Part shown: positions 40,529 to 44,303 of the stretch, in pieces | Layout of the letters: each line of letters starts with the position of its first letter | How positions within the stretch are numbered: the first letter of the stretch is position 1 | Assembly: GCA_003139995.1 (NCBI GenBank) | Contig: PLIC01000233.1 | Coordinates: forward strand, 1-64,000 | From: Candidatus Acidiflorens stordalenmirensis | GTDB lineage: Bacteria; Acidobacteriota; Terriglobia; Terriglobales; Acidobacteriaceae | Direction of reading: 5' to 3' | DNA length: 64,000 nt | Translations under genes and position numbers: made by a program | Notes under the pieces: model-generated | What the model saw: the letters and a program-made list of their open reading frames with translations, nothing else | Told to the model about the DNA's origin: nothing | The model's database searches: none

Positions 40529-41593
40529 ATGGCGGCCAAACTTAAAACCGCGGTTCTCGGCGCGACCGGCTATTCCGGCCTCGAACTCGCTCGCCTTCTT
40601 GGCCGCCATCCGCGGACCGACGCGCCCTTGCTTTTGCGGCGCAGTGCCGAGACAGAGACCGGCGAATCCGACGGACACGGCGCCAGATTGCCGCACATCT
40701 CGGGTAATGGCCGCGGCAATGGCCATTCGCCGGTCCAGCCCTTTTCGTGGTCCGTGTTGGAGCAGCATGGCGTGGAACTGCTGTTCCTGGCGACGCCGCA
40801 CGCCGTTTCTCGCGAACTTGTTCCCGAGGCGATTGCCCGCGGGCTGCGGATCGTCGACCTCAGCGGCGCGTGGCGGCTGAAACAGGAACAGCATCGAGCT
40901 GTCTATGGCTTCAAAGATGCCAACGCCCAGACCGCGGCGGAACTCACGGAGCGCGCCGTGTACGGTCTGCCTGAGTTGAATTCCGACCGGATATCGCCGG
41001 CCGCGCTGGTTGCGAATCCAGGCTGCTATGCGACTTCAGTCATTCTCGCGCTGGCGCCCTTGCTCTCGGCCGGCATTGTGGACTGCGATCGCGGCATCAT
41101 CTCCGACTCGAAGTCCGGAGTGTCCGGTGCCGGCAAGGAACCGACGGCGCGCACGCACTTCGTATCGGTCGCCGACAACTTTTCCGCCTACTCCGTCTTC
41201 GGACACCGTCACACCGGCGAGATTCTCGAACAATTGGCGCTCAATTCCTGCCAGTTGATTTTCACTCCTCATCTCTTGCCAATCCCGCGTGGGATTCTGT
41301 CCACGATTTATGTGTACCTGAAACGCGAAATGACAGCGGACGAGATTCAAAGTTGTCTCCACGATTTCTACAACCGCAAGCGGTGGGTTCGCATTTTCCC
41401 AGCGCCGAGTTTGCCGGAAATCCAATTCTCAGCGCACACCAACTACTGTGATCTCGGTTTCTGTCTCGCGCGCGATGGCCGCCGGCTCGTTGTCGTTTCC
41501 TGTCTCGACAACCTGCTCAAAGGCGCAGCCGGTCAAGCCGTGCAGAACATGAACCTCATGTACGGCTGGGACGAAGCGGAGGGCCTGCAGTGA
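40529..41593 (+). CDS. argC: N-acetyl-gamma-glutamyl-phosphate reductase
   Basis: MAAKLKTAVLGATGYSGLELARLL; VANPGCYATSVILAL active-site motif. Confidence 0.93.
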   Translation: MAAKLKTAVLGATGYSGLELARLLGRHPRTDAPLLLRRSAETETGESDGHGARLPHISGNGRGNGHSPVQPFSWSVLEQHGVELLFLATPHAVSRELVPEAIARGLRIVDLSGAWRLKQEQHRAVYGFKDANAQTAAELTERAVYGLPELNSDRISPAALVANPGCYATSVILALAPLLSAGIVDCDRGIISDSKSGVSGAGKEPTARTHFVSVADNFSAYSVFGHRHTGEILEQLALNSCQLIFTPHLLPIPRGILSTIYVYLKREMTADEIQSCLHDFYNRKRWVRIFPAPSLPEIQFSAHTNYCDLGFCLARDGRRLVVVSCLDNLLKGAAGQAVQNMNLMYGWDEAEGLQ

Positions 41594-42375
41594 AAATTGT
41601 CGTCAAGATCGGCGGTGCGGCACTGGAAGATAAAACGACCCTTCGGAAATGCGCGCATGCGGTGGTGCAGCTCGCCCAGGACGGACACCAGGTCACCGTC
41701 GTGCACGGCGGTGGCAGCGCGCTGACGCGCACCCTGAAACTCCTCGGAAAGAAAAGCGACTTTGTCAACGGGCTGCGCATTACCGACGCCGAGACGCGCG
41801 ATGTCGCCCTGATGGTGCTCGCCGGCATCGTGAACAAAAGCCTGGTGGCCGCGATCGCTGCTGCCGGGCAACCGGCCATCGGCCTTTGCGGTGGAGACGG
41901 CGGCGTCTTTCGTGCCCGCAAGAAGCAGGACGCGGATTACGACTTGGGATATGTTGGCGAAATCTGCTTTTCCGACCCGCGCTGGCTCAAAGTCATCTGG
42001 GCCGAAGGCGGTATTCCTGTGCTTTCCTCGGTTGCGCTCGGAGGCGACGGGCAGTATTACAACGTGAATGCGGACCAGATGGCCGCCGCTTGCGCCATAG
42101 CGTGCCAGGCCGACGCGCTGATTTTTCTCACCGACGTGCCCGGTGTGAAGCAAGCCGACGGTTCGGTCATGCCTCGGTTGGATACCAAGCAAGTTGCCAG
42201 CCTCATCGAGGAATCTGTCGTTAGCGGCGGGATGATGCCCAAGCTCGCAGCCTGCACTCAGGCTCTCAAGTGCGGTGTGGGGCGCGTGCGCATCCTGCCC
42301 GCGGCGCAAGTCGAATTTCTGCCACTGTTTTATTTCGCCAAGCTGGAATGCAGCACGGAGGTGCTGAGAGCATGA
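41590..42375 (+). CDS. argB: Acetylglutamate kinase
   Basis: KIVVKIGGAALED...VTVVHGGGSALTRTL...IGLCGGDGGVF; overlaps argC by 4 bp. Confidence 0.93.
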   Translation: MKIVVKIGGAALEDKTTLRKCAHAVVQLAQDGHQVTVVHGGGSALTRTLKLLGKKSDFVNGLRITDAETRDVALMVLAGIVNKSLVAAIAAAGQPAIGLCGGDGGVFRARKKQDADYDLGYVGEICFSDPRWLKVIWAEGGIPVLSSVALGGDGQYYNVNADQMAAACAIACQADALIFLTDVPGVKQADGSVMPRLDTKQVASLIEESVVSGGMMPKLAACTQALKCGVGRVRILPAAQVEFLPLFYFAKLECSTEVLRA

Positions 42376-42596
42376 GTCTTGCCTCTGTGTCCAGGCAACT
42401 GCTGCAGGAAGGGATCATCATCAATCGCACGCATGAAAACGTGCTGCGCTTTCTGCCGCCTTATGTGATTCAGAAGAAGCACGTGGATCAGGTGGTCAAG
42501 TCCTTGGACGCGGCGTTGCACAAAAATGCGGAGTCCACGCTCAAGAAGAAGAAAACCGCTCCTCCGCCGCGCAAGGAGGCCCATGCGCACGCGTGA
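42372..42596 (+). CDS. 74-aa ORF matching only the C-terminus of ArgD-type aminotransferases, with Lys/Pro-rich tail
   Basis: QLLQEGIIINRTHENVLRFLPPYVIQKKHVDQVVKSLDAAL resembles the ArgD C-terminal region; ATGA overlap with argB and 14-bp overlap with the next gene. Confidence 0.7.
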   Translation: MSLASVSRQLLQEGIIINRTHENVLRFLPPYVIQKKHVDQVVKSLDAALHKNAESTLKKKKTAPPPRKEAHAHA

Positions 42597-43089
42597 GGCG
42601 ATTCTTCCCGATGCCGAGCAGATTCACACTCTCATCGCGGCCTACTCCGGCGACGGCACTTTGCTGCCCCGCACGCTCGCTGAGATCTGCGAAAACGTCC
42701 GCGACTTTGTCGTCCTGGAGCATGACGGACGCATCATCGGATGCGGCGCTCTCCACCTGTATGGCGTGCACCTGGCCGAGATTCGCTCGATTACCGTCGA
42801 TCCCTCGAGCCAAAGCAACGGCGGCGGCCGGCGCCTGGTCAAGGCTCTTCTGGCGCAGGCGGAAAAGCACAAAGTTACCTGCGTGTGCCTGTTCACTCGC
42901 ATTCCGGAATTTTTTTCGCGCATGGGATTCACGGCCGCCGAGCACCAGGATCTGCCCGATAAAATCCATAAAGATTGTCATAAATGCCCCAGGCTCTATC
43001 GCTGCGACGAAGTGGCGATGATCCGCGGAAATCTGCCTACGTTCGCAATTTTGCCGCCGCCAAGAAACTGGTTGAAGATTCAAGCATGA
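42583..43089 (+). CDS. GNAT N-acetyltransferase, ArgA-like short N-acetylglutamate synthase
   Basis: MRTREAILPDAEQIHTLIAAYSGDGTLLPRTLAEICENVRDFVVLEHDGRIIGCGALHLYG...FFSRMGF...KIHKDCHKCPRLYRCDEVAM. Confidence 0.8.
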   Translation: MRTREAILPDAEQIHTLIAAYSGDGTLLPRTLAEICENVRDFVVLEHDGRIIGCGALHLYGVHLAEIRSITVDPSSQSNGGGRRLVKALLAQAEKHKVTCVCLFTRIPEFFSRMGFTAAEHQDLPDKIHKDCHKCPRLYRCDEVAMIRGNLPTFAILPPPRNWLKIQA

Positions 43090-44303
43090 TCTCACTGCGC
43101 CATTCTCTTGGGAAAATTCGTTTGCCTCTGGGGTTCTCTTTCGCTGCTGTCGCTGCCGGCATTAAAGTCAGTGGCCGGCCGGACCTCGCGCTGGCGGAAG
43201 CAGGCCATAGCGCGACCGCCGCCGCGTTGTTCACGCAGAACCGGGTCGCCGCCGCTCCCGTGGAAGTTGGCCGCGCGGCGCTGCTTTCGACCGGTGGCCG
43301 CGTTCGCGCCGTCGTCGTGAACTCCGGCAACGCCAACTGCGCCACCGGACGCGCCGGCATTCAAGCCTGCGAACGAGTTTGTCGCGAAGCTGGAAAATTA
43401 TTCGGCGTGCCTGCTGCCCAAGTCTTTCCATCCTCGACCGGCATCATCGGAGTTCGACTGCCGGCGGAAAAAATCCGCGCAAAGTTGCCGGAACTTTTCG
43501 CAACGAGATCGCCCAGCCAGCGTGGTGTCCTCGCCTTTGCCCACGCCATCATGACCACCGACACCCGGCCCAAGCTGGCGTCTGTGCGTTTCCGAACCGC
43601 CTCGAAAGAAGTCACCGTGTTGGGTATCGCCAAGGGCGCCGGCATGATCCATCCTCAGCTTGCGACCATGCTGGTGTACTTGTTCACCGATGTGAGTGCG
43701 ACTCCGCGTGAGCTGCGGCCTCTTTTGCGCGAGGCATGCGGCGATTCGCTAAATTGCATGTCCATTGACGGCGATACCTCCACCAACGACACAGTGTTGC
43801 TGCTCGCGAGCGGCGCCAGCGGCGCTCGGGTGAGAGATGTTCGCACTCGAAAAAAGCTGTCCGCGGCTCTGAGCGCAGTATGCCAATCCCTCGCCGAACA
43901 GATCGTCAGCGACGGCGAAGGCGTGCAGCACGTGATCCGTTTGTTCGTCGAACAGGCGCGGAGCAGGGAAGAGGCGTTGCTGGTTGCGCGGACGATTGCT
44001 CATTCTGCGCTGGTCAAGACCGCATGGGCGGGCGCCGATCCGAATTGGGGACGCATTCTCGCGGCAGTGGGAAGGTGCGGCGTTCCCATCGATCCATCTC
44101 GCGTCCAGATTTTTATTGGTAGTCAGAAAGTATGCCGCAACGGAATCGCCTGCACGTGCAACGAGCGGCAAGCGCACCGCACTCTTGCACAGCCGGTTTG
44201 CGATGTCCGTGTGCAGATCGGGCGAGGCCAGCACTCGGTGCGATTTCTCACCACCGATCTGACCGCCGAGTATGTGCGGATCAACGCCGATTATTCTACG
44301 TAG
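43086..44303 (+). CDS. argJ: Bifunctional glutamate N-acetyltransferase/amino-acid acetyltransferase
   Basis: VVVNSGNANCATGRAG; GAGMIHPQLATMLVYLFTD with autocleavage ATML; GADPNWGRI; ATGA overlap with upstream gene. Confidence 0.92.
   Translation: MISLRHSLGKIRLPLGFSFAAVAAGIKVSGRPDLALAEAGHSATAAALFTQNRVAAAPVEVGRAALLSTGGRVRAVVVNSGNANCATGRAGIQACERVCREAGKLFGVPAAQVFPSSTGIIGVRLPAEKIRAKLPELFATRSPSQRGVLAFAHAIMTTDTRPKLASVRFRTASKEVTVLGIAKGAGMIHPQLATMLVYLFTDVSATPRELRPLLREACGDSLNCMSIDGDTSTNDTVLLLASGASGARVRDVRTRKKLSAALSAVCQSLAEQIVSDGEGVQHVIRLFVEQARSREEALLVARTIAHSALVKTAWAGADPNWGRILAAVGRCGVPIDPSRVQIFIGSQKVCRNGIACTCNERQAHRTLAQPVCDVRVQIGRGQHSVRFLTTDLTAEYVRINADYST

Follow-up and report, generated by a model that had tools for sequence, protein, structure and literature searches.

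The question raised by this locus is how a 74-codon ORF came to lie between argB and an acetyltransferase gene in an arginine operon, and whether it encodes a micro-protein in its own right or is what was left of a larger gene. In the window, the whole 64,000-nucleotide stretch of DNA that was analysed, the ORF is indeed present where the earlier note had placed it, on the + strand at 42372–42596. The operon, also on the + strand, reads argC–argB–74-codon ORF–argA-type GNAT–argJ, with every gene overlapping the next one. Its first two genes are argC (40529–41593), encoding N-acetyl-gamma-glutamyl-phosphate reductase (TIGR01850, 349 bits, cut-off 233.6), and argB (41590–42375), encoding acetylglutamate kinase (TIGR00761, 221 bits, cut-off 151.3). 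The stop codon of argB and the start codon of the ORF overlap by 4 bp as ATGA (42372–42375), and the GNAT start, at 42583, lies inside the 3' end of the ORF, giving an overlap of 14 bp; both overlaps are as first described. The GNAT gene (42583–43089) is a candidate N-acetylglutamate synthase (NF005840, 159.3 bits, cut-off 154), with identities of 84–93%, and is joined by a further ATGA to argJ (43086–44303), encoding ornithine acetyltransferase (TIGR00120, 381.5 bits, cut-off 298). With the argA-type GNAT and a full ArgJ adjoining each other (42583–44303), the operon holds two possible sources of N-acetylglutamate.

Judged from its sequence, the 74-codon frame is no chance ORF. Residues 5–74 of its predicted product align with the C-terminus of the full-length ArgD of a relative, G008 (residues 354–423), at 84% identity (E = 7e-34), tail included, and the VLRFLPP motif, the C-terminal LRF(L)PP segment, falls in register with that of ArgD. 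The resemblance to ArgD proposed at the outset therefore holds. The Aminotran_3 profile of Pfam (PF00202) matches the product at E = 2.6e-6 and 28.2 bits, slightly below its cut-off of 30.5, whereas TIGR00707, the model of the acetylornithine/succinylornithine aminotransferase ArgD, a class-III enzyme, gives 28.6 bits against a cut-off of 410. Two elements had been read differently in the earlier note. The KKKK/PPP tail was regarded as an added piece, but ArgD in this genus normally ends in such a variable C-terminal tail (KKKK/PPP...HAHA). The ORF as a whole was taken for a C-terminal piece, which is correct for most of its length but not for its beginning: codons 1–7 (42372–42392, +), MSLASVS, are the true ArgD N-terminus, the same codons that open full-length argD in G008, G003, G010, G018 and G020, so that just the middle of the gene is missing. 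The last ~67 codons and the stop (42393–42596, +) carry the VLRFLPP motif and a charged tail typical of the genus, and MSLASVS and RQLLQEG... mark the start side and the end side of the joint, respectively.

What has gone amounts to ~349 of 423 ArgD codons, among them those for the region of the PLP-binding lysine, AKPLACGLPLG in G008 ArgD. The alignment with acetylornithine aminotransferases of known structure, 2eh6 among others, spans residues 14–394 of G008 ArgD, whereas the window ORF retains only those from ~357 onward. Because the PLP-binding body (residues 8 to ~356 of G008 ArgD) has no counterpart in the ORF, an absence that had been recognized from the start, the 74-aa product as predicted cannot be an aminotransferase.

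The relatives in the genus, genomes from soil and peat metagenomes that carry the label Acidobacteriaceae or Terriglobia, point to what this slot once held. A full argD of 421–449 aa occupies the identical position in G008, G003, G010, G020, G018, G013, G012, G006, G011 and G001, and in further genomes the argD slot was confirmed by genome-wide placement. In these relatives the start codon of argD shares an ATGA with the argB stop, and the protein opens with MSLASVS or a close variant; the charged tail and the overlap with GNAT are also found in their full-length genes, and are thus ancestral. The DNA of the window is collinear with that of G008, at 90% in both flanks, with a single break at which 1.04 kb of G008 is missing. 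Measured against G008, the deletion comprises 349 codons (1,047 bp) and joins argD codon 7 to approximately codon 357. The junction, GTGTCCAGG (42387–42395, +), reads GTG TCC AGG, while relatives have GTC TCC CGC at the left end (parental sequence GTCTCCCGC) and GTG GCC AGG or GGG, that is GTGGCC(A/G)GG, at the right end. Both parental ends share an imperfect stretch of 2–6 nt (GTNNCC) in the same codon register. Of the two origins suggested in the earlier note, a clean internal deletion is accordingly the one that the comparison bears out, as relatives have an intact gene at this position, with the same overlaps, and the window retains 7 N-terminal plus ~67 C-terminal codons. Relocation of the missing part within the genome was considered and rejected, since no other contig of the window genome carries it and the best match elsewhere is only a paralogue at 51% identity. 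Among the genomes compared, the 74-codon form occurs in this one genome only, being absent from 23 other genomes of the genus.

Taken together, these observations lead us to regard the ORF, with a probability of roughly 85%, as the remnant of a fairly recent in-frame deletion in argD, the loss of which would have been tolerated through an ArgD paralogue. From an ancestral operon argC–argB–argD–argA–argJ, ~1,047 bp of argD would have been excised, the ends being probably joined at the short imperfect direct repeat GTNNCC, which may itself have caused the event. A shared stretch in the same register at both ends would explain why the reading frame and both neighbour overlaps survived. Ribosomes probably still pass from argB through the remnant to argA by way of the ATGA and the 14-bp overlap, and the peptide itself would not need to have any function.

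In this regard, the search for a full-length argD elsewhere, which the earlier note had recommended, was successful, and the description of the ORF as an orphan does not apply to this genome. A full-length paralogue, ArgD2, lies at G000:C179:10861-12105, is 51% identical to ArgD1 (the argD product of the operon) and is the best other ArgD1 match in the genome; it scores 459 bits against TIGR00707, close to the 464 bits of G008 ArgD1 and above the cut-off of 410. ArgD2 is found through most of the genus. Within genomes at least 90% complete, all 12 of the 12 argD-less operons, that of the window genome included, coexist with an ArgD2 at least 68% identical to the one in the window genome, a co-occurrence that represents a consistent pattern among hand-picked genomes and not a statistical test. 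Only an ArgD1-like gene is found in G006, G011, G002, G082 and G120, and neither ArgD1 nor ArgD2 is seen in G160, an incomplete genome (69%). Family membership and this pattern of presence suggest that N-acetylornithine aminotransferase activity is probably supplied by ArgD2, by which the loss of argD from the operon could be tolerated. Arginine auxotrophy as the default interpretation was rejected, given an ArgD2 above the argD cut-off and the presence of argH in the window genome. The same genome also contains partial class-III aminotransferase genes (L054 on G000:C180 and L080 on G000:C119), two of which run off the ends of their contigs; G000:C180 carries one 5'-truncated gene of this class and the start of another.

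The window genome is not alone in having lost argD. In G014, G016 and G023 the GNAT gene follows within ~30 bp of the argB stop. G023 retains a 14-codon ORF, MSFVSQHEEAHAYA, in which the beginning of ArgD is joined to its end, and in G014 (L105) and G016 (L106) GNAT lies in frame with the start codon that overlaps the argB stop. All three genomes are without an ArgD1 match and were candidates for the mini-ORF; their junctions were read, and none has it. Since they form a well-supported clade apart from the window genome, the comparison indicates that argD has been lost at least twice within the genus. In several other genera of the family argD is likewise gone from behind argB, and argF is the next gene. 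As regards neighbouring proteins, the fusion in G014 and G016 possibly gives GNAT a ten-residue N-terminal extension (MSRASRNGRP / VKRPSRNGRP), and in five argD-less operons of another genus (L111, L132, L136, L140 and L145) the frame opened by the start codon at the argB stop continues into argF, to which it adds an N-terminal extension that varies in sequence.

Would the remnant nevertheless have been kept for its product? The earlier note had offered a retained micro-protein, acting as a regulator, decoy or subunit, as the other possible origin, and the C-terminal piece of ArgD could be imagined to bind ArgD2 or another arginine enzyme as a decoy or complex subunit. In line with this notion, the remnant is open, with neither frameshift nor internal stop, and under branch models its dN/dS on the window lineage is 0.16, a value of 1 being rejected (2ΔlnL 12.7) on a branch that covers periods both preceding and following the deletion. 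The same codons, however, evolve at 0.21 elsewhere (2ΔlnL 0.28), so the remnant behaves as intact argD does, which is expected if the branch mostly predates the deletion. The tested branch begins at the split from G008 and its relatives, when argD was still whole; therefore, the low dN/dS does not show conservation of a micro-protein, as a recent deletion would give the same result. Moreover, two changes on the window lineage fall at ArgD positions that are invariant in 14 relatives, T407N (in THETVLRF) and A428S (in KALDAAL; alignment numbering), and mildly favour relaxed constraint; A389S, in the same numbering, is the joint itself. The GNAT start, which overlaps the last codons of the remnant, places a further constraint on them. 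The mini-ORF was found in no relative compared, a result that the earlier note had named as speaking against its proposal, and argD-less relatives retain no such fragment. With no positive support for it in our results, a functional micro-protein appears very improbable.

Selection could instead act on the frame and not on the peptide, the remnant being kept open to supply argA with the ribosomes that it needs from argB, with start, stop and frame as the features maintained. This would be consistent with the preservation of both the ATGA shared with argB and the 14-bp overlap with argA, and with the fact that the 14-codon remnant of G023 and the fusions of G014 and G016 also start on the argB stop and reach the GNAT start region. 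Tight translational coupling of overlapping gene pairs in bacteria is, moreover, reported in two papers (PMC6728339, PMC10666635). Nevertheless, one third of deletions are in frame by chance and the independent events are few, the ATGA is partly a by-product of the conserved argB end, and argA has a GGAGG of its own ahead of its start codon (42575–42579). In addition, some other argD-less operons end the ORF that overlaps argB after 9–31 codons, where a linkage is not clear. Such a relay is thus improbable, if less so than a functional peptide. Scarcely better are the chances of its general form, in which selection after argD loss would maintain a short open frame of any sequence that bridges the argB stop and the argA start, holding the translation of the two genes together; the 74-codon ORF, the 14-codon ORF and the fusions would then belong to a single process at different stages. 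As to whether the gap is real at all, an intact argD could have lost 1.05 kb during assembly or binning of the metagenomic contig. The window genome is a draft of 5.49 Mb in 313 contigs, no second genome of its species is among those compared, six unique argB substitutions at otherwise invariant columns could hint at an imperfect consensus, and broken argB copies occur in two other drafts of the genus, G004 and G007. On the other hand, the similarity at the joint covers only 2–6 nt, far below what an assembler would collapse, the contig continues for 97 kb and the missing part lies on no other contig; furthermore, argD has been lost from the same slot in relatives, such as the 100%-complete, 30-contig G016. 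Assembly error is hence an unlikely cause of the missing argD.

The 74-codon ORF is, then, most likely an ordinary gene remnant. It shares with ArgD the operon slot, the start, the C-terminal end and the tail, and with bacterial pseudogenes formed by internal deletion the collinear flanks, the full gene in relatives, the probably redundant paralogue and the further erosion in relatives; it differs from the latter in being still open, its start and stop codons and its overlaps with both neighbours having been preserved. These overlaps, ATGA on one side and 14 bp on the other, resemble those of the coupled pairs described in the two papers above, but here the overlaps are known from DNA sequence and the middle ORF is apparently without product function. 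Our search of the literature turned up no account of argD remnants from Acidobacteriota. Within a single genus, the locus would illustrate stepwise gene loss, from full argD through a 74-codon and a 14-codon remnant to a start-codon fusion, with a second ArgD always available. For annotation, it is a warning not to interpret ORFs of this kind as micro-proteins and not to take an operon without argD as a sign of arginine auxotrophy. Were the translational relay true, operon neighbours could constrain the reading frame of a dead gene.

Finally, argB itself shows some peculiarities in the genus. It appears broken or interrupted in G004 (L045), where it falls into two frames, and in G007 (L048), where it has ~50 extra residues, which may represent draft errors or real lesions. 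In the window lineage, argB (41590–42375) has a raised dN/dS (0.178 vs 0.046, 2ΔlnL 12.8), and its unique changes at columns invariant in relatives are the most of any genome compared; consensus error, relaxed constraint or adaptation to the loss of argD are possible reasons for both features.
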